Of a stretch of DNA of 64,000 bases, positions 8,717 to 39,687 are shown piece after piece. The notes below the pieces were generated by a model, which was given only the letters and a program-made list of their open reading frames with translations, ran no database searches and was not told the origin of the DNA. This DNA is from an uncultured Sphingomonadales bacterium (GTDB lineage: Bacteria; Pseudomonadota; Alphaproteobacteria; Sphingomonadales; Rhodothalassiaceae), in assembly GCA_947499155.1 (NCBI GenBank), contig CANMND010000001.1, forward strand, positions 310,001-374,000, written 5' to 3'. Numbering within the stretch: position 1 is the first letter of the stretch; every line of letters starts with the position of its first letter. The translations under genes were made by a program, and so were the position numbers.

Positions 8717-11602
8717 TTAGTTAAAAATATCGCCCCAATCCCTTGTAAGCCATGGCTTATTCCGAACATTCAACTGCTCGTACAGGCGCCCGTTAAGCCG
8801 CAAGCGCTGGCCGCTGTCTCGAGAAATATCTTCAAACCCGGTTGAGAAATCCGATCGTGGGCCACCAAACGGCCAGAAACTGGAGAGTGGAATGGTTATG
8901 TAAACTCCGTTTGCGGGGTTAAGGGCGGCGAATTCCTTGCGGGTTTTATCGGTCAAAGTCAAATAACCGCCGATCCGGACACCATTGTCGAAACGACGTG
9001 ACAGATCGATAGTGCCACCCCAGTCACCGCCCAAATATCTTCCCGCGCGAAAAACAGTGCGAAAGCCGCCCGACCATTCCCGATACAGACTGACGTCCCC
9101 TGTCACCCTGTCGCCGCCCACCAGCCCCAAAAGCTGCTCCACACCGCGCCGCTTCACCCAGTTCAGCTCCGCACCATAGGCCCACTTCCCCTGCGCTGGG
9201 GCAAAAAGTACTTCGCCCGAAAGCCCGGCATACATTTCCTCAAAAATACCCACCGACAATCGCCCAAAAAATTCTTCGCTTAAGGCAAAACGGTAGTCAG
9301 CCTGGAGCCTGGGGATGGATGTGCGTCCTTCCTTTATGTAGCGCCTTATATCCCGGCGCACCACTGGAAGTGCGTCTGGATTTCCCTGTGGCACGATATG
9401 ATCCAGGTTGCCGACTACATATTGACGAGCCACAGCTGAGAGTTCCAAGCCTGGCATAAATGTCAACGAAGCCAACAGGTCAACGCTTAAATCTGCAAGC
9501 CACAATCCGCTCTCCCTGTCACCGGCATGCTGGCGAACAAAAGGTGCAGCACCCCATGAAAAGACAGGATAGGCATCAGGGTTTTTCACTTTTTGATGCA
9601 ACCCCGTCCCCTTGTGAGGCTCGGTGTCGATAACTGTCGTCAGCCAAAGCTCCTCAGGCGAACCCTTGCCCTGAAGTGCCTTAAGGATGTCACGTCTGAG
9701 TAATCGCGTTTCAACAACATCAGTCTTTGCCACCCCGCGCCTGATAGCGATTGCCTCCACCATCTGCGGCGTTTCCTGCGCCAGAAGGCGGGCTGTCCGC
9801 CCGATCAGCGTAACTTCCTTGTCCTCAAAAGGCGTATCGACCCAGACGGTCAGACGCCCCTCATTCCACGCCATTGCCCGCGCATTAATACCGGCATCGG
9901 CAAGAATAGCGAACAAGCGCTTACTGTCTTCGGAGAAAAGATCAGCCGTGTCATAACCCGTCGGCACGACAAGAACATGGCCAAGCTCAGCATGTTCAGC
10001 CAGACGCCCCCCATCCACATTGCCGCTGTCCATACCTTCCACCGCAAGCACGGCTTGCGCACCACCATCAATATCAAGTGATGAGACTGTCACATCATCG
10101 GGGAGAGCCGCCAGAATATGGCGCGCCTCAGCGCTGGCCCGTTTCATACTGATTCCATGCTCGTCCTCTTCATCTTCCCAGTCAGTTGCCGCCACAGCAA
10201 CCCGCAAAATATCATCGGGAAGATGACGTAAAAGATCATCATCTGATATGAGCACAGCCTCATCGCTCGCGACAAGCTGAGCGGTTCCATTCGACAGAAT
10301 GACGGACGAAGCGCCTTGCTCTCCTTCGTCATCAATCAGCGCAAGAAGGGCCGAGCTTTCCTCGCCTGCCATGGTCTTGCGCCGATAATAACGCGCAGCT
10401 CCTGCCCTCTCGCCTTCCTGAGACAGCCAGACAGTCGCCATGGATGGCATCATGACGCCAAATAATGCATCAACTATAGTGTGCTCCCTCAAGGGCGTCA
10501 GTCTCACGCCCTGCGGCACAACCAGTGACAGGGATAGAGCATCATAATTTACATGGGCATCTTCAAGACCAAGACGGTCCAGAAGTGCTGCAAGACGCAT
10601 ATCAAGCCCGGCAGGGTCCTCAACAGATGACGAAACCTGCCTGTTTATAGGCTCATGATGTGGCAAAGGATCAAAGCCTTCGCGAGATGGACGCGGCTTA
10701 TCCCTAAAGGCATACGGCAAATCAAACATGTCAAACCGGATCGCCGTTCGCAACATAACGCTGTTACCGCGTTCAAAGCCAACGGCCATATCGAGCCACG
10801 GCAATGGCCTGTAGGCAAGACCCACATTGACAGGCCATGGATCTTCCAGGGGATTGCCATAGGGTTCCAGCGCCGGGTCTGCTCCATTGTATTCCACCTT
10901 CAAGGACACGCCATCCAATGGTGTTTCCCATTCTACCCCGCCAAAAACAGCAAGATTTTTTCCGGCAAAGTAACTGCCAAGGTTCAGCGTTCCTCTGCCC
11001 TCGTCCTTAGACCGGCTCTTGAAGCTGTTCCTGAATAAAGAAAAGGGATTGCCTACATGATTGCGTGACCCCAGATACCCCCACCCAAGACCAAAGCTGA
11101 AATCAAGCGCACCAAATCGCTTGCTGGCAACAATATATTCCCCACCGAACCGGGCACGGCCCAGTATATCCTGAGCACCGATGGCAAAAGCCGGCAAAAC
11201 TCTGGTCTCTTCAGACAATCTGATCTTGATATCAAAATTACGGTCGGTCACCGTTCCGCCGCCCCTGAACCGGAGCAGGTCTTCCATGAACGACACCTCT
11301 TCCAGAGGCCGGACAGTGCCGTCGCGCGATACATTGGTGATATCAACAGCCCGAAAAGAAAGCTCAAGCCACGACAAAGGCTGGGTCAACAGATAGAGCC
11401 CACGATATGGCTCTACCGCCAGAGCACCCAACTCCAGACTCCCCACAGGAGCCATCCGCGCTGTACGTGTCTGCAGCAGACCGACACCACCGAAGTCATT
11501 GGCAGACACGTCAGGTTCAGGCGCAAATTGTGCCTTCACGTCGGTGCTGTTCAGAACAAGCACAAATGTCAGCGCGACTGCGGCAATGATCCGGCGTGTC
11601 AC
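8717..11602 (-). CDS. YjbH-domain outer-membrane polysaccharide export/assembly protein
   Basis: A large (961 aa) secreted beta-rich protein of the YjbH type (E. coli yjbEFGH exopolysaccharide operon). A Sec signal peptide (ends near STDVKAQF) is followed by NDFGGVGLLQTRTARMAPVGSLE, the start of the YjbH domain, and then many alternating aromatic/hydrophobic strands compatible with an outer-membrane barrel. The TTG 42 bases upstream would overlap the SLBB gene and has no ribosome site. The GTG at 11602 has AAGGTGAG just before it and is chosen. It starts 22 bp after the SLBB stop, so the two are probably co-transcribed. The precise mechanism of YjbH proteins is not settled. Confidence 0.85.
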   Translation of the reverse strand: MTRRIIAAVALTFVLVLNSTDVKAQFAPEPDVSANDFGGVGLLQTRTARMAPVGSLELGALAVEPYRGLYLLTQPLSWLELSFRAVDITNVSRDGTVRPLEEVSFMEDLLRFRGGGTVTDRNFDIKIRLSEETRVLPAFAIGAQDILGRARFGGEYIVASKRFGALDFSFGLGWGYLGSRNHVGNPFSLFRNSFKSRSKDEGRGTLNLGSYFAGKNLAVFGGVEWETPLDGVSLKVEYNGADPALEPYGNPLEDPWPVNVGLAYRPLPWLDMAVGFERGNSVMLRTAIRFDMFDLPYAFRDKPRPSREGFDPLPHHEPINRQVSSSVEDPAGLDMRLAALLDRLGLEDAHVNYDALSLSLVVPQGVRLTPLREHTIVDALFGVMMPSMATVWLSQEGERAGAARYYRRKTMAGEESSALLALIDDEGEQGASSVILSNGTAQLVASDEAVLISDDDLLRHLPDDILRVAVAATDWEDEEDEHGISMKRASAEARHILAALPDDVTVSSLDIDGGAQAVLAVEGMDSGNVDGGRLAEHAELGHVLVVPTGYDTADLFSEDSKRLFAILADAGINARAMAWNEGRLTVWVDTPFEDKEVTLIGRTARLLAQETPQMVEAIAIRRGVAKTDVVETRLLRRDILKALQGKGSPEELWLTTVIDTEPHKGTGLHQKVKNPDAYPVFSWGAAPFVRQHAGDRESGLWLADLSVDLLASLTFMPGLELSAVARQYVVGNLDHIVPQGNPDALPVVRRDIRRYIKEGRTSIPRLQADYRFALSEEFFGRLSVGIFEEMYAGLSGEVLFAPAQGKWAYGAELNWVKRRGVEQLLGLVGGDRVTGDVSLYREWSGGFRTVFRAGRYLGGDWGGTIDLSRRFDNGVRIGGYLTLTDKTRKEFAALNPANGVYITIPLSSFWPFGGPRSDFSTGFEDISRDSGQRLRLNGRLYEQLNVRNKPWLTRDWGDIFN

Positions 11603-28619: not shown

Positions 28620-29744
28620 ATGAGTACACAGGTTTTTCGTATCGGAATTCTGGGCGCATCCGGCTATACCGGGGCTGACCTTGTTCGTCTTTTATGCGTC
28701 CATCCCAATGTGGAGATTGCGTTGCTTTCGGGCGGGCGCAGTGCCGGCCGCCCATTGGCAGATGTATTTCCCCATTTGGCCCATCTGGATCTGCCAGACC
28801 TAATCGGACTGGATGAGGTGGAATGGCCGGCCCTTGATCTTGATCTCATATTCTGCGCCCTGCCGCATGCCAAGACGCAGGAAGTGGTAAAGGGCCTGAT
28901 GCATGAAACAGGTCACAGCCTGCTTGATGAGCTTTTGATCGAGCGGCGCGAGGATCTGGTTTCTGCTGCCAGAAATGACATCAAAATCGTTGACCTGTCA
29001 GCGGATTTTAGGCTGGAAGATACCAATGCATATGAAATCTGGTATGGCCGCCCCCATCAGGCGCCAGAGTTGCAAAAGGCCGCAGTTTATGGTCTGCCAG
29101 AGTTAAACCGCGAACGTATTCGCCACGCTTCCCTCGTTGCCTGCCCCGGCTGTTATCCGACCGCCGCCCTTTTGGCCATTATACCCCTCCTCCAAAATGG
29201 CATGGTTCTGGCTGACGAGATCATCATTGACGCAAAATCAGGTGTGACTGGAGCAGGCCGCAGTCTCAAGGAAAACATGCTTTTTTCTGAAGTGGCAGAA
29301 GCCATGCACCCATATGGGATTGGCCGACATCGCCACATGCCGGAAATGGAACAGGAAATGGCCCGTGCTGCCGGTCGCCCGGTTGGCCTGAGTTTTACAC
29401 CTCATCTCGTGCCCATGAACCGTGGTGAGCTTGAAACCATTTATGTCCGGCTTCAGAAGGGCAAGACAGCGCGTGATCTTCGTGAAGCCCTTATAGAGCG
29501 CTATAAAGACGAGCCTTTTGTCCATATTGCAACAGAGGGTCTGGCACCCGCCACACGCCATGTCCGCGGCTCCAACCTGTGTGTTTTGAATGTGTTTGAA
29601 GACCACATCCCCGGACGCGCCATTATCATTGCCACCATTGACAATCTGGTCAAAGGATCATCGGGCCAGGCAATCCAGAACATGAACCTGATGCTGGGCC
29701 TCAATGAAACAACCGGCCTCAATCAGGCCCCGCTTTTCCCTTGA
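28620..29744 (+). CDS. argC: N-acetyl-gamma-glutamyl-phosphate reductase
   Basis: Third step of arginine synthesis: NADPH reduction of N-acetylglutamyl-phosphate to the semialdehyde. N-terminal dinucleotide motif ILGASGYTGADLVRLL (residues 9-24), catalytic cysteine in VACPGCYPTAALLAI, and the SGVTGAGRSLKE and HRHMPEMEQEM segments are present. At 374 residues it is slightly longer than common ArgC; the extra length lies around residues 95-115 (MHETGHSLLDELLIERRED), between the cofactor domain strands. Its stop overlaps a possible TTG of the carbonic anhydrase gene. It probably heads a three-gene operon. Confidence 0.94.
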   Translation: MSTQVFRIGILGASGYTGADLVRLLCVHPNVEIALLSGGRSAGRPLADVFPHLAHLDLPDLIGLDEVEWPALDLDLIFCALPHAKTQEVVKGLMHETGHSLLDELLIERREDLVSAARNDIKIVDLSADFRLEDTNAYEIWYGRPHQAPELQKAAVYGLPELNRERIRHASLVACPGCYPTAALLAIIPLLQNGMVLADEIIIDAKSGVTGAGRSLKENMLFSEVAEAMHPYGIGRHRHMPEMEQEMARAAGRPVGLSFTPHLVPMNRGELETIYVRLQKGKTARDLREALIERYKDEPFVHIATEGLAPATRHVRGSNLCVLNVFEDHIPGRAIIIATIDNLVKGSSGQAIQNMNLMLGLNETTGLNQAPLFP

Positions 29745-29761: not shown

Positions 29762-30334
29762 ATGCCCAAAACACAAAGACCCCACGGCCTTGATTCAGAT
29801 AGCGGTGACATCCAGCCATTCAATGGAATCTGGCCGAAAATTGCCGACGATGTCTTCCTGGCATCCGGCGCGCGAATCATTGGAGATGTAGAAATCGGTG
29901 CCGGTTCATCAATCTGGTATAACTGCGTTTTACGGGGCGACGTCAATCATATACGCATCGGTAAAGGCACCAATATTCAAGATGGCAGTGTCGTTCACGT
30001 CTCCCATAAGACGCACCCCACCCTGATCGGCGATCACGTTCTGGTCGGGCATATGGCCATGCTTCATGGCTGCGTGTTGCATAATCACAGCTTTATAGGG
30101 CTTGGAACCATCGTCATGGACGGCTGTGTTATCGAAGAAGACGGAATGCTGGCGGCCGGATCCCTTTTGGCGCCGGGAAAAACCATCAAGGCCGGCGACA
30201 TGTGGATGGGGCGACCTGCCCGGTTCGTGCGGCGTCTGGATGATGCGGAAATCAAGGCCAACAGAATGGGTGCTCCGGGCTATGCGGGGCTTGCCCAAAT
30301 GTTCCGTTCTGAACGGCGCGAAAAGACTTCATGA
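29762..30334 (+). CDS. Gamma-class carbonic anhydrase-like protein
   Basis: A left-handed beta-helix protein (190 aa) built of hexapeptide repeats: ARIIGDVEIGAGSSIWYNCVLRGD, then IRIGKGTNIQDGSVVH and IVMDGCVIEEDGMLAAGS. The zinc-ligand histidines of the gamma class appear in place (SVVHVSHKTH, then LVGHMAMLHGC). Family proteins hydrate CO2 or, in mitochondria of plants, form part of respiratory complex I. The ATG at 29762 gives the standard N-terminus; a TTG seven codons earlier overlaps argC. Its 3' end overlaps the next gene by 4 bp (ATGA). Confidence 0.9.
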   Translation: MPKTQRPHGLDSDSGDIQPFNGIWPKIADDVFLASGARIIGDVEIGAGSSIWYNCVLRGDVNHIRIGKGTNIQDGSVVHVSHKTHPTLIGDHVLVGHMAMLHGCVLHNHSFIGLGTIVMDGCVIEEDGMLAAGSLLAPGKTIKAGDMWMGRPARFVRRLDDAEIKANRMGAPGYAGLAQMFRSERREKTS

Positions 30335-31185
30335 CTGCCAAAACACCTAAGGGCCTCAGCCACTGCTCTCAGCTTGTACACGATCATGACCATGATCGTT
30401 GGTTAACGATGTTGTTTGCAAATGCCGACGACCGTGAGGCGCTGGCCGCTCTTTATGCCTTCAATCACGAAGTGGCAAAAACCCGCGAAACCGTGTCTGA
30501 GCCGATCCTTGGCGAAATTCGGCTGGAGTGGTGGCGCGAAGCGATAGAAGGCCTCTATCAAGGGGCTGTACGCCGCCACCCTGTCACCGAAGCGCTGGCA
30601 AGCGCCATGGAAGCGCGCACCCTGCCCCAAACAGAATTCGAAGCAATTATTGATGGCCGCTTGAGCGATCTATACGATACCAACCCCAAAAGCTTTGATG
30701 ATCTGCTTGATTATGCAGACAAAACCGGTGGGACAGTCTCACGCCTTGCTGCACGCATCTGTGGTGTTGAGGATGACCCATTGCTGCATGCGGCCTCAGC
30801 TATTGGCCGTGCCTGGGCCTTAACGGGACTATTGCGTGCTTTGGGCTTTCAAGCCGCCATGCGACGGACCATGCTGCCAGACGAATCGCTGGACAAAGCC
30901 GGCATTTCAAAGGAGACCCTATTCAAAGGTGAATTCTCACCGGAACTGATTCCGGTCATCAATAATCTGGTGGAGACAGCCCAGGCAGCGTTGGACGAGG
31001 CGCGCACAGTCCGGCCTCTCATCACGCCACAACAGCGCAGCCCTTTTCTTCTGGCAGTCACGGCCCGCAGCTATCTAAAGCGACTGGAACAAAGTGGTGG
31101 CGACCCCTTTGCAACCGACTTTTCCCGTGGCGCTACAAGACGCCAGCTTAAACTGCTCTGGTCTGCACTGCGCAAGACGTTTTAG
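30331..31185 (+). CDS. Squalene/phytoene synthase-family protein, NDUFAF6-like
   Basis: A 284-residue all-helical protein of the squalene/phytoene synthase fold. The Asp-rich DxxxD metal-binding motifs of the true synthases are not seen: the first region reads LYAFNHEVAKTRETVSEP and the second DGRLSDLYDTNP. It keeps the fold signatures RLEWWREAIEGLY and ARSYLKRLEQSGGDPF. This is the pattern of NDUFAF6, the mitochondrial complex I assembly factor that shares this fold without known synthase activity. Its ATG overlaps the gamma-carbonic anhydrase stop, so the two are translationally coupled. A role in complex I assembly is inferred from the family and the neighbour. Confidence 0.82.
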   Translation: MTAKTPKGLSHCSQLVHDHDHDRWLTMLFANADDREALAALYAFNHEVAKTRETVSEPILGEIRLEWWREAIEGLYQGAVRRHPVTEALASAMEARTLPQTEFEAIIDGRLSDLYDTNPKSFDDLLDYADKTGGTVSRLAARICGVEDDPLLHAASAIGRAWALTGLLRALGFQAAMRRTMLPDESLDKAGISKETLFKGEFSPELIPVINNLVETAQAALDEARTVRPLITPQQRSPFLLAVTARSYLKRLEQSGGDPFATDFSRGATRRQLKLLWSALRKTF

Positions 31186-31249: not shown

Positions 31250-31381
31250 ATGGCCACGTACAAGGAGAAGCCAAAACAGGCGCAATGGATGAGCCCCTAT
31301 GCTATTGTCAAAAACACCAGAGACAGTCTCAATTTTTATCAAGAGGCACTGGATGCTTGCAAGCCATATCGGTATGGATAA
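31250..31381 (+). pseudogene. N-terminal fragment of a VOC (glyoxalase-fold) protein
   Basis: A 43-codon ORF with a good ribosome site (AAAAGGA) starts MATYKEKPKQAQWMSPYAIV and continues KNTRDSLNFYQEALDA, the first beta-alpha unit of a VOC/PhnB-like fold. It then stops at KPYRYG. A different frame of the next 60 bases (MDNAPPPPDGMDS) may be residual sequence, but no further VOC motif follows before parC. A complete VOC protein is about 120-150 residues, so this is most likely a truncated relic. It could also be a free small protein. Confidence 0.55.
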
Positions 31382-31505: not shown

Positions 31506-33755
31506 ATGCCTACACAGTCCACGCCCGATCAGATCATCGAAACGCCGTTCGACACTGCGCTGTCAGAGCGTTATCTCGCCTATGCGCTGTCAACGATCAT
31601 GTCCCGCTCCCTGCCCGATGTGCGCGATGGCCTAAAGCCCGTCCATCGGCGGCTGCTTTACGCCATGCGGCTTTTGAAGCTTGACCCTGAGACGGGCTAC
31701 AAAAAATGCGCCCGGGTCGTAGGTGATGTGATTGGTAAATACCATCCCCATGGAGACCAAGCCGTCTATGACGCGCTGGTGAGGCTCGCCCAACATTTTG
31801 CCGTCCGCTATCCCCTGATTGACGGACAGGGCAACTTTGGCAATATCGACGGCGATAACGCTGCCGCCATGCGGTACACCGAAGCGCGCATGACCGCAAT
31901 TGCTGCCGCATTAATGGATGGACTTGACGAAGATTCCGTAGATTTCCGCCGCACCTATGATGGGGAAGAAGAAGAGCCGGTGGTGCTCCCCGGTGCTTTC
32001 CCCAACCTGCTGGCCAATGGTGCGTCAGGAATCGCTGTTGGCATGGCCACATCAATCCCGCCCCACAATGCGGGCGAACTGGTTGATGCCCTTCAGCTTT
32101 TGATCAAGGCTCGCAAAGGCAAAAGAGGCCCGGTCAGTGATCAGGACCTGGTCCGTCTTGTCCCCGGTCCTGATTTCCCTACAGGCGGTGTGGTCGTTGA
32201 ATCACCAGAGTCTATCCTTCAATCCTATCGTACCGGACGCGGCTCTTTCCGTACCCGCGCACGCTGGGAAAAAGAAGAAATTGGCCACGGCACCTGGCAA
32301 ATAGTGGTTAGCGAGATCCCCTATCAGGTGGGGAAAGCGCGGCTGATCGAAAAGATTGCCGAACTGATCAACGACAAAAAACTGCCAATTCTGGCCGATG
32401 TCCGCGATGAATCGACCGAAGATATCCGACTGGTTCTGGAACCGAAAAGCCGGAATGTGGATCCGGACATTCTCATGGCCAGCCTGTTCAAGTTGACCGA
32501 TCTGGAAACCCGCATTTCACTGAACATGAATGTGATCGACCTGGACGGCACACCGCGGGTTTTGTCTCTTGGGCAGGTGCTGGAAGCATTCCTTGACCAT
32601 CAGCTTGTGGTTTTAAAACGACGCACGGCCTTCCGGCTCGACAAGATCGCACGGCGGCTTGAAATTCTTGAAGGTTATCTCAAGGCTTATCTCAATCTGG
32701 ATGAAGTGATCCGCATCATTCGTGAAGAAGATGAACCAAAAGCAGAACTGATCCGCACATTCACCCTGACCGACATACAAGCCGAAGCGATCCTCAATAT
32801 GCGCCTGCGCTCCCTGCGCAAGCTTGAGGAAATGACAATCCGGGCTGAGCATGAAAAACTGAGCATTGAACAGGAAAGCCTGACCGGACTGTTGGCCGAA
32901 CCCACCCTGCAATGGGCCGAGATCGGCAAAAAACTGACAGATATAAAGAAACGTTTCGGTTCCGGTATGGAGGGGGGTGCCCGTCGAACTGGCTTCTCCG
33001 ACGCACCTGTTCTGGACTCGGTTCCGATGGAAGCAATGATCGAGCGGGAGCCGATTACTGTTGTTTATTCCCGCAGGGGCTGGCTGCGCGCCATGAAAGG
33101 CCATATGACGCCGGACGCCGCCATCAGCTTCAAGGAAGGGGACGAAGAGCGCTTCCGGCTTCATGCCTATACCACTGACCGCATCCTTGCCTTCACATCG
33201 CAAGGGCGCATGCACACATTGTTTGCTGATAAACTTCCCGGCGGCAGAGGGCATGGCGAACCCTTGCGAATTCTGGTCGACCTGCAAGGGGACGAGGAAA
33301 TCGTGGCGATGATGCCCTATGAGCCGGACAGTCACCTGCTTTTGGCCTCATCTGATGGCCGTGGCTTTCAGATTGAAGCGGACAAGGCGCTCGCCTCGAC
33401 GAGAAGCGGCAGACAGGTGATGAATGTGGGAACCAGCGTCAGGGCAACCCACTGTCTGCCAATTGACGGGGACATGGTGGCAATAATCGGTGAAAATCGC
33501 AGATTGCTGATTTTCCCGCTAGATGAGATACCGGTCATGGCACGTGGGCGCGGCGTGATCTTGCAGCGCTATCGTGATGGCGGACTTGCAGACCTGCGTT
33601 TGATTGAAAAAGATCAGGGACTGAGTTGGCCAATGGGGGGATCAACTGGTCGGGTTCGGACAGAAACAGATCTGACGCCCTGGCTTGGCAAGCGGGCAGG
33701 ATCAGGACGTCTGCCCCCAACCGGCTTTCCACGCAGCAACCTGTTTTCAGGCTAA
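31506..33755 (+). CDS. parC: DNA topoisomerase IV subunit A
   Basis: Breakage-reunion subunit that decatenates daughter chromosomes with ParE. The 749-residue protein shows [19 protein letters not shown] at the N-terminus, then [16 protein letters not shown] and [19 protein letters not shown] (helix-turn-helix region). The catalytic tyrosine lies in [11 protein letters not shown] near residue 125. The C-terminal part has beta-pinwheel blades such as [16 protein letters not shown] and [17 protein letters not shown]. Length and blade count match ParC rather than GyrA (no GyrA-box seen by eye). It stands alone; parE is not in the window. Confidence 0.93.
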
Positions 33756-33779: not shown

Positions 33780-34502
33780 CTAGGCAAATGAGATGTGGCT
33801 TCCAGGCTCCAGCCCAAGGATCGCCTGTGCGCTGCCCTGATTAACGGCGATTTCTGCAAGACCGCAGGAATTGGCGTACCAGAACGCCATGCCCTCGGGA
33901 TAATCACAAAAGGTGCGGCCTCGGGGTAATCGACGTCGGCCAATGAGCAGGACCCTGTCACCCACACGGTCCGCATTCATGCCTGTCATGGCATTGCCAA
34001 AGTCATCAATATATATCACTTGTGGCAAATCATCGGGCCAGTCCTCGCCCGGCATGACGTTCTCAAGCGGTGCAGTTGCTACCTTCTGCCCCATTGCCAA
34101 GGCTGCGGCCGCCGGTGCGAACAGGTCACGTCCATGAAAAGACGCACTGAGCCGGGCGGGTACTTTTGTCAGACGAGAGACCATGTGATGATCCGTTGCC
34201 TGACGCATGACCATCTCAAACAGGCCATTGCCCGGTCCCACCAGCCTGCGACCATCGGCCTCCACCACAACAGCAGGACGCTCACCGCCGACACCGGGAT
34301 CGACAACAGCGCACACGACTGCATCACGTGGCAGATTGTCCAGCAAACTTGCCAGCAAATAGGCAGACCCCTGCGGCCAAAAGCGTGGCGCATCATGCAT
34401 CAGATCAATAACAGGCACACCCGGTGCACGATCAGCAATGACCGCCTTCATCTGACCTACGTAAGGCCCGTTCCATCCAAAATCTGTATAAAGAAAAATC
34501 AT
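33780..34502 (-). CDS. SAM hydroxide adenosyltransferase family protein (DUF62)
   Basis: Family members hydrolyse S-adenosylmethionine to adenosine and methionine (SAM hydroxide adenosyltransferase, related to fluorinase/chlorinase). The 240 residues begin MIFLYTDFGWNGPYVGQMK and carry the conserved DLMHDAPRFWPQGSAYLLAS, VVDPGVGGERPAVVV and GPGNGLF motifs, with FHGRDLFAPAAAALA in the middle. The ATG at 34502 has GGTGAGGAA just before it. The in-frame sequence upstream (to 34619) is only the coding shadow of a palindromic repeat and is not counted. It is divergent from the BtuF-like gene. Confidence 0.9.
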   Translation of the reverse strand: MIFLYTDFGWNGPYVGQMKAVIADRAPGVPVIDLMHDAPRFWPQGSAYLLASLLDNLPRDAVVCAVVDPGVGGERPAVVVEADGRRLVGPGNGLFEMVMRQATDHHMVSRLTKVPARLSASFHGRDLFAPAAAALAMGQKVATAPLENVMPGEDWPDDLPQVIYIDDFGNAMTGMNADRVGDRVLLIGRRRLPRGRTFCDYPEGMAFWYANSCGLAEIAVNQGSAQAILGLEPGSHISFA

Positions 34503-34532
34503 TTCCTCACCAAAAACTGCGCAAGTATTACC

Positions 34533-34568
34533 ATGGATTCCATGGTCAAGCCATGGAATGACGACGAG
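34533..34568 (+). repeat. Dispersed palindromic element, copy 1
   Basis: Core TCCATGGTCAAGCCATGGA forms a 7-bp perfect stem with a TCAAG loop, followed by ATGACGACGAG. The 31 bases 34533-34563 occur in exact reverse complement at 56046-56076, and a covarying variant lies at 56098-56128. It sits in the divergent intergenic region between the SAM adenosyltransferase and BtuF-like genes. Confidence 0.85.
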
Positions 34569-34747
34569 AGTTTCATGGAATGATGTGCAAAGGACCGCAG
34601 TGTTACGAAGAGCGCCCATAAAATGGCAAATAATTTGCCGTGGACTGGCGTGGAGAGGATCACTGCCTGATATGTCAGTTACAGGGAAAGCGCGGTTTCT
34701 TGTCTTTGGACTTGGCGGCGCATTCCCTTGGCGTTATTGTCCGCACC

Positions 34748-35692: not shown

Positions 35693-36895
35693 TTAGGTAT
35701 GGCGAACAGTTTCAAGGAACCGGTCTGATTCCGTTCGCATTTCCACAACGCGATCTTTCATTTCCCTGACTGCGGTCAACACGATTTGTGCTCGCTCACC
35801 GGTGTTTCTCGCGGTATTGCCGATATCTGCCAGTCCGGTACTCATACCGACGGTAGCCTGTTGGATATTGCCGCTGATCTCACCTGTTGCCCGCATCTGT
35901 TCATCGACAGCCTTGGTAATGGCTGTGATTACGCCTTACAAATCCTGTACTTGCTGTGAAATGGCAGTAATTGACGCGACTGTTGATTGTGTCGCCTGCT
36001 GCATTTCTTCGATCTGGTTTGCGATTTCCTGGGTAGCGTTTGCTGATTGGTTGGCAAGCGCCTTCACTTCCCCCGCCACGACGGCAAAGCCCCGGCCCGC
36101 CTCACCTGCACGCGCAGCTTCAATAGTGGCGTTAAGAGCAAGCAGATTTGTCTGCCCTGCTATCCCCCGGATAAAGACAATAACCCGATCCACGCTGGCA
36201 GCAACCTCTTCCAGTTCTGCTACCGCTTTTTGCGCATTCTGGATATCGATTGCCATTGACGTTACAGCATCAGTGGAGAAGTCCCCTTGCCTGCTAATTT
36301 CAAAGATTGAGGTGCTCAATTCTTCAGAGTTTTGAGCAATCGAACTGGCGGTTGCCGTGGTTTGTTCAACATCTTCTGCGGCGGTTGCAGCCACTTCCAG
36401 GCTATCGACTGAACTGGTCAACGCGTCCACAAGGTGCCTCATCTCCCGCTCAAATCCATCGGCAAGCGCGTGCCTTTCTCGTTGAGAAGCCTTTTCCATA
36501 TCGGCCATATGGGCACGGGTATGGTCAATATCACGCGCCCCTTGGGCAAAACTGCCGCGCAGGCCACGCTCCATGAAGCGCCTGTAGTACAAGCCTTTAC
36601 TGGCTGCCTTCAACGTCCCCCGTGAATCCCGGACACAAGCATCGGCCATATCAAGCAAATGATTAAGGGCGTGCATGCTGTCAACACCAAGCGCATCAGA
36701 CGCAATACCTGTAATGCAGGTTTCAAGATCGCCCGTTGCTGCATCCTAGCACACAGCCGCTATTCGCTCCAACGTATCGCGGTATGACAGGCATTCTGCT
36801 TCCAGTTCTTCAATTCTTGCATGACCGGCCCTGTTGATAGTGTCGTTGTCTGCACTGCGAACACCCTTGGCAACAAAACGAGAAAACATATTCAT
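35693..36895 (-). pseudogene. Soluble methyl-accepting chemotaxis protein, disabled by two nonsense codons
   Basis: One continuous frame of 401 codons is closely related to the intact chemoreceptor at 37895-39154, but interrupted by TAG at 36748-36746 (codon 50) and TAA at 35938-35936 (codon 320). The intact copy has Gln at both places, so each is explained by a change from CAG or CAA. It also lacks about 15 residues in the segment before AEQTT and three residues near TVGMSTG. The signalling hairpin ([41 protein letters not shown] region) is still recognisable. Its ATG (36895) overlaps the stop of the PAS gene (ATGA), as in the intact pair, so it was formerly coupled to it. Confidence 0.92.
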
Positions 36896-37434
36896 GCCGC
36901 CCTCTCCTGCGCAATCTGCATAAAGATAAATTCATCAAGGGTCATGTCATGGGCAGCGATCCGTGCGTCCAAAAGCGCGCTACCAGCTTCAAGACCCAGC
37001 TTGCGGCTGCCAGCACTCCTCTCGGCATTACAAAGATCCCGGTACAAGGCGGACATTTCATCAAGTACCGGTCGGTTAGGCGCACGTCGCATGGAATGGT
37101 ATCCGACGATACTGCCATCAGCCGCGAAGGTGGGCGTAAAATGGGCCACGACCCAATAAAAATCTCCACCTTTTGTCAGGTTTTTCACATATGCGAATAT
37201 TTCGTTCCCTGCCTTAAGGCGGTCCCACGCGGCCTTGAATATGGTGCGTGGCATATCGGGATGACGAATAATATTGTGCGGCTGCGTCAGAACTTCGTCT
37301 TCCACATAGTCCGCGATATCAAGAAATTCCCGATTGGCGTAAGTGATGCGCCCTTGCAGGTCTGTTTTTGAAACAATGATATTATCTGGAGAAAGATAAC
37401 GTTCGTTCTGTGTAGGTGTTGGTGTCCGTGACAT
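36892..37434 (-). CDS. Small PAS-domain sensor (Aer-like), copy A
   Basis: A 180-residue soluble protein with one PAS domain of the Aer type: [20 protein letters not shown] near residue 18, then [39 protein letters not shown] and a C-terminal helical part ([21 protein letters not shown]). In Aer such PAS domains hold FAD and sense redox state; that is assumed here. It has no membrane segment and would signal through a separate chemoreceptor. The partner gene next to it, to which it is coupled by ATGA, is a pseudogene. It is nearly identical in design to the PAS protein at 39151-39687. Confidence 0.88.
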   Translation of the reverse strand: MSRTPTPTQNERYLSPDNIIVSKTDLQGRITYANREFLDIADYVEDEVLTQPHNIIRHPDMPRTIFKAAWDRLKAGNEIFAYVKNLTKGGDFYWVVAHFTPTFAADGSIVGYHSMRRAPNRPVLDEMSALYRDLCNAERSAGSRKLGLEAGSALLDARIAAHDMTLDEFIFMQIAQERAA

Positions 37435-37894
37435 ATATACGACCTTATACCGGCATATACTCTTTTCTATGCAGCCTTTATCAGGCTTAGAAGACTTCTA
37501 TCTATATTTCACATAATTAAGAGTTAATTAAGAGAATTATACTAAAAATTTAGTACAATTGGAGATGTCCGAGTTTTCCGGAGCATCGCTTTTGCTTGCG
37601 CTAATAGTCAATTGCACCCCCGTTTACCTCGGGATGACGCAAGCTGTCCCGGCACTACATCTGAGATAGGAAAGGTACAGAGCACGTCATATGGCGAAAA
37701 GCCATGCGGATAAAAATGGGAAATATTTATGGTTACAATCCCACGGACCAATGCAGCGCCGGGCATGTTGAAACACGCCCTCAGCCGCTTCACCCTGAGC
37801 TGTTTGAGCCCTGGATGAAGAGAGCCGTATGGCGGACAGATTTACGCTAAAGCGTCGTCCAGAAGACTTTTACTAGATTAGACCAATACCGGCA
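37435..37894. other. Intergenic region between duplicated blocks
   Basis: 460 bases without an intact gene. 37435-37565 is AT-rich (ATAATTAAGAGTTAATTAAG) and probably holds the promoter of the minus-strand PAS gene. 37566-37697 shows nothing I recognise. 37698-37850 is the 3' relic of a BtuF-like gene. 37851-37894 is the spacer before the stop of the intact chemoreceptor gene, matching the 34-bp spacer of the other copy. Confidence 0.6.
37698..37850 (+). pseudogene. 3' remnant of a BtuF-like gene
   Basis: Translating this strand gives KAMRIKMGNIYG at the beginning and LHPELFEPWMKRAVWRTDLR before TAA. The end of the intact BtuF-like protein reads LHPELFEARMKGSAWRTV, also after KAMQNGRVYLADGN. 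The alignment runs in one frame with only small gaps. The remnant sits 44 bp from the end of the convergent chemoreceptor gene, as the intact BtuF gene sits 33 bp from the chemoreceptor pseudogene, so it belongs to a duplicated block. Confidence 0.82.
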
Positions 37895-39154
37895 TCAGGC
37901 TTGGCGGACTGTTTCAAGGAAACGCCCTGATTGCGTGCTGATTGCCTGAACGCGCTCTTTCATATCCTTGACCGCATTCAATACATCCAATGCCCGCTCA
38001 CCGGTGTTTCTGGCAATGTTTCTAATGTCAGATAATCCGGTACTCATCTCGGACGAGCCAACAGCAGCCTGCTGGATATTTTGACTGATCTCACCTGTCG
38101 CCCGCATCTGCTCATCAACGGCACTGGCTATGTTTGTGATCACACCCTGAAGATCTCGTGCCTGTTGTGCGATGGCAGATATTGACTGGATTGTGGATTG
38201 TGTTGCCTGTTGCATTTGCGTTATCTGAGCCGCGATATCTTCGGTAGCATTGGCGGACTGATTGGCCAGGGCTTTTACCTCTCCCGCCACCACCGCAAAG
38301 CCCCTGCCCGCCTCACCCGCGCGCGCAGCTTCAATTGTGGCATTAAGCGCAAGCAGATTTGTCTGGCCTGCTATATCACGAATAAAGACGACAACACGGT
38401 CCACATTTGCTGCGGCGTCTTCCAGACCTGCCACAGCTTTTTGCGCATTCTGGACATTATTTGCCATCGATGCCACGGCTTCAGCAGAATAATCCCCTTG
38501 CCGGCTGATTTCAGAAATTGACGCGCTTAATTCTTCAGAGCTTGCAGCAATGGCGCTGGCTGTGGATGTGGTTTGTTCAGCATTTGACGCAGCCGTCACA
38601 GCGCTGGTGACCGTATTGTTGGCATTGTCGGCCATGGTGGCAGCCACCGCTTCCAAGCTATCGGCTGAACTGATCAATGTATCGACAAGATGCACCATCT
38701 CGCGTTCAAACTCATCAGCAAGCGCGTGCCTTTCTTGTCTGGCCGTCTTTTCCATATCAGCCATGATTGCCCGCGTCTGGTCGATATCTCTTGCGCCCTG
38801 GGCAAAACTTCCGCGCAAGCCGCGCTCCATGAACCGCCTGTAATATCTGCCTTCACTGGCAGCTTTCAGAGTTCCGCGCGATTCCCTGACATAGGCATCA
38901 GTCATATCCAGCAATTGATTCAGGGCATGCATGCTGTCTGCGCCATGGGCATCGGCGTCAAGCCCTGTTATGCGAACCTCAAGGTTGCCCTGTGCCGCCG
39001 ACTGACACACTGCGGCAATCCTGTCTTGCGTCACACGAAAAGACGTGTTTTCCGCTTCCAGCTCCGCTATGCGCTGATGCAACTTCCTGATCTGCATTTC
39101 ACCAGCGTTACTCATGCGGCTCCTTTTGAGATTAAAGTATGACAACACAGTCAT
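37895..39154 (-). CDS. Soluble methyl-accepting chemotaxis protein, copy B (intact)
   Basis: A 419-residue chemoreceptor without membrane helices. Residues about 20-50 form a coiled coil ([15 protein letters not shown]); 55-140 is a HAMP/linker-like part ([17 protein letters not shown], then [22 protein letters not shown]). From about 190 the MCP signalling domain follows, with the hairpin [20 protein letters not shown] and [17 protein letters not shown]. This is the C-terminal half of an Aer-like PAS-MCP, encoded separately. ATG at 39154 overlaps the PAS gene stop (ATGA), so the two proteins are made together and likely form one oxygen/redox receptor. It presumably contacts CheA/CheW; no che genes are in view. 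Confidence 0.9.
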
Positions 39155-39687
39155 GCTGCGCACTCCCGCACTGTCTGCATGAAGTTGAACTCATCGAACG
39201 TCAAACCATGTGCTGCAAGCCGGGCATCAAGAAGTGCACTTCCAGCCTCCAATCCCAGCTTTCTGCTCCCTGCTGCTGATTCTGCATCACACAGATCTTT
39301 ATAAAGTACCGATATTTCATCAATTACAGGACGATCAGGCGCACGTCGCATGGAATGGTAGCCTGAAATACTGCCATCCGCTGCAAAGGTAGGAGTGAAA
39401 TGGGCCAATACCCAGTAAAAATCACCGCCTTTTGTCAAATTCTTCACATAGGCGAAGATTTCATGACCGGCGGCTATATTCTCCCATGCACGTTTAAAAA
39501 TAGTACGTGGCATATCGGGATGACGAATAATATTATGAGGCTGTGAGAGAACTTCGTCTTCCGCGTAATCGGCAATATCAAGGAAATCACGATTGGCGTA
39601 GGTGATGCGCCCTTTCAGATCTGTTTTTGAAACAATAATATTGTCTGGCGCAAGAAACCGTTCATGAGACGTGGTAACAGGCGTCAT
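39151..39687 (-). CDS. Small PAS-domain sensor (Aer-like), copy B
   Basis: The 178-residue partner of the intact chemoreceptor. The PAS domain begins at about residue 15 ([20 protein letters not shown]) and shows [20 protein letters not shown] and [19 protein letters not shown], the Aer-type core, followed by a helical C-terminus. It differs from copy A by scattered substitutions only. The stop overlaps the chemoreceptor start by 4 bp. The cofactor (probably FAD) and stimulus (oxygen or redox) are inferred from Aer. Confidence 0.9.

Follow-up and report, generated by a model that had tools for sequence, protein, structure and literature searches.

An NDUFAF6-like protein encoded beside a gamma-carbonic anhydrase in an alphaproteobacterium: gene neighbourhoods and co-distribution with complex I

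Two overlapping genes in the genome of an uncultured Sphingomonadales bacterium, one for a gamma-carbonic anhydrase (gamma-CA) and the other for a protein resembling NDUFAF6, raise the question of whether they are an ancestral pair or met by local accident. A sequence-only reading of the window (the whole 64,000-nucleotide stretch of DNA analysed) had suggested that they might be a bacterial precursor of a complex I assembly module, with the second protein being something other than an isoprenoid enzyme. The 4-bp overlap from which it started is real (ATGA at 30331-30334). We use "AF6" for the family of the protein encoded at 30331-31185.

The overlapping genes and the AF6 protein

The features of the locus are the following.

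28620..29744, + strand: argC (N-acetyl-gamma-glutamyl-phosphate reductase); TIGR01850, 406 bits against a cut-off of 233.6
29762..30334, + strand: gamma-CA, 190 aa, ATG at 29762; PF00132 hexapeptide repeats, 60 bits
30331..31185, + strand: AF6, NDUFAF6-like, 284 aa, ATG at 30331, predicted SQS/PSY fold without DxxxD motifs; PF00494, 205 bits
30331..30334, + strand: ATGA start/stop overlap of gamma-CA and AF6, read from the sequence; present in locus L034 too
31506..33755, + strand: parC; TIGR01062, 863.5 bits against a cut-off of 628.9

Tightly packed on one strand, argC (ending at 29744), gamma-CA and AF6 are followed by a gap of 320 bp before parC. The nearest named relative, alpha proteobacterium Q-1, has the same 4-bp ATGA overlap (L034, positions 9965-9968) and shares with the window the position of parC downstream of AF6. 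ATGA overlaps are frequent between co-directional neighbours in bacteria, and the overlap by itself is no demonstration of a common pathway.

Several other features of the region were recorded. Between AF6 and parC, a 43-codon frame (31250-31381) looks by eye like the start of a glyoxalase/VOC protein and has no Pfam match. On the minus strand, positions 33780-34619 encode a SAM hydroxide adenosyltransferase (PF01887/PF20257), and a similar gene was seen by eye after parC in L034. Farther on, also on the minus strand, two similar chemotaxis receptor genes enclose a PAS protein (35936-39163); the receptor gene at 35936-36676 is short, with a signalling-domain match that ends at profile position 117 of 172, and may be broken.

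The PF00494 (SQS/PSY) match of AF6, at 205.2 bits, spans residues 17-264 of 284, nearly the full length of the protein. Against curated equivalog models AF6 nevertheless falls below the cut-offs for HpnD (154.3 vs 278.6 bits) and HpnC (76.6 vs 250.45 bits), and it scores 49.9-57.4 against CrtB models whose cut-offs are 480-550. Three PF00494 genes are present in the window's own genome, AF6 and two paralogues on contig C5, which keep both Asp-rich motifs and are HpnD- and HpnC-like by motif pattern, not by curated-model score. Alignment with these paralogues places AKTRE of AF6 against DDIAD of both at motif 1, and ALGFQ against DVEED and DCGDD at motif 2, in agreement with the earlier statement that the second protein lacks DxxxD. 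On the curated cut-offs and the motifs we rejected AF6 as a third HpnC/HpnD-type enzyme. An AlphaFold2 model (pLDDT 95.5, pTM 0.93) predicts the alpha-helical fold of trans-isoprenyl synthases; the closest folds found by Foldseek were CrtM-like enzymes and HpnC (TM 0.78-0.85; CrtM-like alone, 0.81-0.85).

Relatives were aligned in two sets, A1 (n = 29) and A3 (n = 41). Motif 1 starts with A in 27/29 (A1) and 35/41 (A3) and ends with E or D in 28/29 and 39/41, while motif 2 starts with A in 27/29 and 37/41 and has H as its fifth residue in 20/29 and 27/41. R64, W68, D113, G166 and R169 are invariant in both sets, and R110 is nearly so. No AF6 member read at the motifs has the DxxxD pair; the proteins of three genomes (G037, G062 and G081) have one Asp at a motif start without the pair and were counted as AF6 by an R-x-x-W-W-like segment after motif 1. 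The second matches found in G405, G415, G423 and G447 are HpnC-type proteins with catalytic motifs (IDDMVD, VDDMVD or VDDMAD plus QDAxxDL).

PMC12470011 describes AxxxD and AxxxH/SxxxH motifs in the human and Arabidopsis proteins, assigns NDUFAF6 a role in ND1 biogenesis, and notes that the AxxxD/AxxxH remnants are absent from the fly protein. Judged by its sequence, AF6 is part of a large family of alphaproteobacterial proteins with motif remnants similar to the ones described in human and Arabidopsis NDUFAF6, and it is very probably NDUFAF6-like and not a prenyl synthase. Bacterial orthologues have been used before: four served as outgroup in the NDUFAF6 tree of PMC8007014.

The window's gamma-CA finds its best PDB matches in the gamma-CA subunits of plant mitochondrial complex I (E 3e-52) and scores 167.8 against the curated model NF050158, missing the cut-off of 250. 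Three candidate zinc histidines are present, His79, His97 and His102, which we take to be the ligands by assignment from the Cam enzyme.

Genomic neighbourhoods of gamma-CA and AF6

How often the two genes meet was examined in a class sample of 115 alphaproteobacterial genomes and in a set of named AF6 loci, the best 80 of 573 confirmed. Among the 71 class genomes having both genes, only two place them within 20 kb of each other: the window's own and G102 (8.6 kb). Three of the 80 named loci have gamma-CA close to AF6: it is directly upstream in Q-1, and separated from AF6 by sodB in Eilatimonas milleporae and Kordiimonas marina, both Kordiimonadales. One genome of family f18, described below, adds a further case (G442, gamma-CA 2.2 kb upstream on the same strand). 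Across these class genomes, named loci and f18, adjacency is thus not kept beyond one lineage; contact hardly occurs outside the window's lineage and Kordiimonadales, a pattern close to the restriction to a single lineage that the sequence-only reading had itself named as counting against its module.

Each gene has a recurrent neighbour of its own. For gamma-CA it is argC, which precedes it on the same strand in 15 of the 20 further regions taken from class genomes, hand-picked as mostly the best-scoring gamma-CA genomes plus G022, G089 and G110. We rejected gamma-CA as a nuo-operon gene, since nuo genes occur in one of the 20 regions, that of G089, which was picked for that reason. At this locus (L227), gamma-CA follows NuoI on the same strand at a distance of 4.8 kb, and NuoJ-N were not detected in the interval. 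Nor does adjacency to nuo genes, earlier proposed for survey, hold in the window's genome, where AF6 and gamma-CA are on contig C1 and nuoF-nuoN on contig C2.

AF6 is found instead in the company of an NDUFAF3-like gene (PF04430) and of genes of the Sec machinery. The NDUFAF3-like gene occurs in 61 of the 115 class genomes, together with AF6 in 55 and without it in 6. In 45 of the 55 it precedes AF6 on the same strand by no more than 12 kb, usually with yajC-secD-secF, and it also precedes AF6 on that strand in 53 of the 63 named loci (from the best 80 of 573) that have at least 5 kb of upstream sequence. A frequent order is yajC, secD, secF, NDUFAF3-like, AF6, inverted trmFO and inverted uvrA; some loci have an inverted sodB or a small membrane gene between the NDUFAF3-like gene and AF6. 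Some of the loci (the best 80 of 573) are short; across all 80, secF is present in 54, trmFO in 62, uvrA in 44 and sodB (Fe/Mn superoxide dismutase) in 28. In 27 loci sodB precedes AF6, and in 15 it is an inverted gene no more than 1.2 kb upstream. The window's genome has a yajC-secD-secF-NDUFAF3-like cluster on contig C2, without AF6. In f18, where AF6 is common, just 3 of 150 genomes have an NDUFAF3-like gene above the cut-off; the two can therefore be lost independently. NDUFAF3 and C8orf38 were reportedly linked to SecF/SecD/YajC by Saada et al. in 2009. Joint action of NDUFAF3 and C8orf38 also has the support of a co-evolution study (PMC3436739).

These neighbourhoods suggest how the contact in the window may have come about. 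The gene order is argC-gCA-sodB-AF6 in the two Kordiimonadales loci (L086 and L091) and argC-gCA-AF6 in L034 and the window. Because two Kordiimonadales show the order with sodB, the contact can be read as a move followed by loss of sodB: sodB and AF6 probably left the Sec cluster together and landed behind argC-gammaCA, in an order of moves that we infer, and sodB would later have been lost from between them in the line of the window and in Q-1, producing the 4-bp overlap. Gamma-CA would then be an ordinary enzyme of its family, co-expressed with AF6 by chance. The contact seems to be a local rearrangement in a small bacterial branch and should not be taken as function.

Distribution of AF6 relative to complex I

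AF6 was found in 74 of the 115 class genomes. For 57 of these the motifs were inspected (29 in A1, and 17, 10 and G017 separately), and the other 17 were called by profile score; in two class genomes the motif check overrode the score, taking G100 out and bringing G110 in. NuoF exceeded the cut-off in 73 of the 74, a count in which relatedness is not corrected for, and in the remaining genome, G105, NuoF is truncated at the end of a contig. The Fisher values computed for the class sample take no account of relatedness or of genome reduction. Of the 99 class genomes in which NuoF passes the cut-off, 26 yielded no AF6, and 22 of these 26 are no larger than 2.1 Mb. Complex I can therefore form without AF6; the co-occurrence of AF6 with complex I in the class is one-way only.

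Family f18, probably Acetobacteraceae, was picked because its member G187 lacked NuoF in a wider run (332 of 389 over the cut-off), and 150 of its genomes were analysed. Two operon types, nuo13 and nuo14, are described for Acetobacteraceae in PMC10715153. Separate NuoC and NuoD were taken to define mitochondrial-type complex I, and a fused NuoCD with a long NuoG to define the E. coli type. NuoF was over the cut-off in 122 f18 genomes, of a second type only in 11, without a match in 13 and below the cut-off in 4 others, and on operon inspection the second type proved E. coli-like (fused NuoCD, long NuoG) in 11 of 11. The TIGR01959 cut-off fails to separate the two types, since G408 and G470 (L186 and L207) have fused NuoCD although their NuoF passes it.

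All 13 f18 genomes with E. coli-type complex I only are without AF6 (10 judged by motif, 3 by score). Of the 13 that gave no NuoF match, 12 are likewise AF6-less (6 judged by motif, 6 by score), and the remaining one, G406, is a 550-contig draft. The nine AF6-less genomes judged by score only (G472, G478, G481, G485, G494, G502, G511, G518 and G527) are each congeneric with a motif-checked one and have one or two weak matches. Mitochondrial-type operons were inspected in 27 genomes, and 22 of these have AF6, every one read at the motifs; as for the other five, AF6 is absent from G434 and its sister G522 and from G499, G445 has a broken copy, and G304 was not checked. Both operon types are present in G432 and G443, which keep AF6. 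AF6 was also scored in five f18 genomes without NuoF over the cut-off (G399, G406, G449, G495 and G528), drafts of 160-560 contigs; in G528, NuoF is cut by a contig end.

Gamma-CA was matched at E <= 1e-40 in 92 of the 150 f18 genomes and in none of the 25 (13 + 12) judged to lack mitochondrial-type complex I. It tracks complex I type less closely, because no match at that level was found in at least six genomes that carry both AF6 and mitochondrial-type complex I (G017, G248, G409, G417 and G432 unmatched; G443 only at E 2.6e-4).

Relationships within f18 were approached with a tree of HpnD and HpnC from 35 genomes, for which the window's genome served as the outgroup. In it, the genomes that lack mitochondrial-type complex I group together (support 69), nested among AF6 carriers; because they cluster, the joint loss of AF6 and mitochondrial-type complex I may have been a single event. 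Three losses of AF6 with complex I kept were counted in f18: one in G434 with G522, one in G499 and one in G445. The association between AF6 and complex I type in f18 is suggestive. Together with the class counts it bears out the co-occurrence that had been proposed for survey, in that the distribution of AF6 follows mitochondrial-type complex I.

Interpretation and comparison with known systems

Three other accounts of these observations have to be weighed. One is that gamma-CA and AF6 do form a bacterial complex I assembly module, gamma-CA acting as a platform or as a local pH/CO2 element as in plants. The overlap kept in the window and Q-1 would fit it, as would the complex I gamma-CA subunits that are the closest PDB relatives and the absence of both gamma-CA and AF6 from those 25 f18 genomes that were classed as having no mitochondrial-type complex I. 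However, AF6 has the NDUFAF3-like gene and SecDF/YajC as its neighbours, gamma-CA has argC, and contact between them is rare elsewhere, so a paired module is unsupported and an ancestral pair was rejected; the six genomes that combine AF6 and mitochondrial-type complex I without a strong gamma-CA match, and the Kordiimonadales order that explains the contact by a move and the loss of sodB, likewise argue against the module, which we consider distinctly unlikely. What survives of the earlier proposal is that AF6 is NDUFAF6-like, linked to complex I and very probably no isoprenoid enzyme, as its motifs, its scores against the cut-offs and its tie to mitochondrial-type complex I indicate; the joint ancestral module, with a contact nearly limited to one lineage, does not.

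AF6 might still be an isoprenoid or lipid enzyme working through an altered active site, perhaps as a metal-free transferase or phosphatase, with only an indirect link to complex I. The modelled fold, close to CrtM-like enzymes, and the invariant residues (with R110 nearly so), which could line a pocket, are compatible with such activity, and 12 of the 80 named loci (best 80 of 573) have a further SQS/PSY gene close by on the opposite strand. Yet the DxxxD pair is absent from the members read, and a nematode NDUFAF6-like protein is described in PMC12470011 as having no squalene or phytoene synthase activity. Moreover, AF6 is no substitute for a catalytic SQS/PSY protein, because f18 genomes read as lacking AF6 keep catalytic-type genes and most AF6 carriers have them too. 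An enzymatic role is unlikely on this evidence. The recurrence of AF6 near yajC-secD-secF could also mean that it aids membrane protein insertion in general, through Sec, and not complex I specifically. The absence of AF6 from f18 genomes without mitochondrial-type complex I speaks against such a general role, and NDUFAF3 and NDUFAF6 are listed or modelled as mitochondrial complex I assembly factors in PMC7050145 and PMC3436739; we regard a general Sec function as very unlikely.

Given the predicted fold, the loss of motifs, the compared gene orders and the co-distribution with mitochondrial-type complex I observed for AF6, our preferred reading, which we hold to be probable, is that AF6 is the bacterial NDUFAF6, a non-enzymatic helper in building mitochondrial-type complex I, and that its contact with gamma-CA is a local rearrangement. 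AF6 would be a squalene-synthase-fold protein that has lost its two metal-binding motifs and been turned to assembly, where its partners at the membrane would most likely be the NDUFAF3-like protein and the insertion machinery of YajC-SecD-SecF. Its step would probably be the insertion of NuoH (ND1), its presumed client, and the proximal membrane arm, and their joining to the peripheral arm, and its retained pocket could hold a lipid or a quinone tail. More broadly, and here we find the case evenly balanced, alphaproteobacteria before mitochondria may have had a dedicated assembly line for mitochondrial-type complex I, in which YajC-SecD-SecF, the NDUFAF3-like protein and the NDUFAF6-like protein acted on NuoH and the proximal arm; E. 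coli-type complex I would not use this line, and AF6 would have been dropped when the type was swapped.

In humans, NDUFAF6 variants cause Leigh syndrome. If the assembly-line reading is true, the function of NDUFAF6 could be solved in a free-living bacterium. The presence and absence of AF6 by complex I type offer a natural comparison, and Paracoccus or Rhodobacter a simple system for finding client and ligand.

Set beside known systems, AF6 corresponds most closely to NDUFAF6 (C8orf38; Ndu1 of Candida), which has an SQS/PSY domain with both DxxxD motifs lost. It resembles NDUFAF6 in the AxxxE/D and AxxxH remnants of most aligned members and in a distribution tied to mitochondrial-type complex I; it differs in being bacterial and, in the window, in having AxxxQ at the second motif where H is usual, and the likeness is drawn from bacterial sequences and published eukaryotic motifs. 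With HpnC, HpnD and CrtB (squalene, presqualene and phytoene synthases) AF6 shares PF00494 and the predicted fold, but unlike them it misses the curated cut-offs and has no Asp-rich motifs. The window's gamma-CA is like CA1/CA2 of plant complex I, its closest solved relatives, in keeping the three candidate zinc histidines; unlike them, the bacterial gene has argC as its recurrent neighbour, and its likeness to complex I subunits is one of sequence. The cluster of NDUFAF3-like (DUF498) and SecDF/YajC genes is the recurrent neighbourhood of AF6 in the examined loci, and the window's genome departs from it in that the NDUFAF3-like gene stays with yajC-secD-secF on contig C2 while AF6 stands apart on contig C1.
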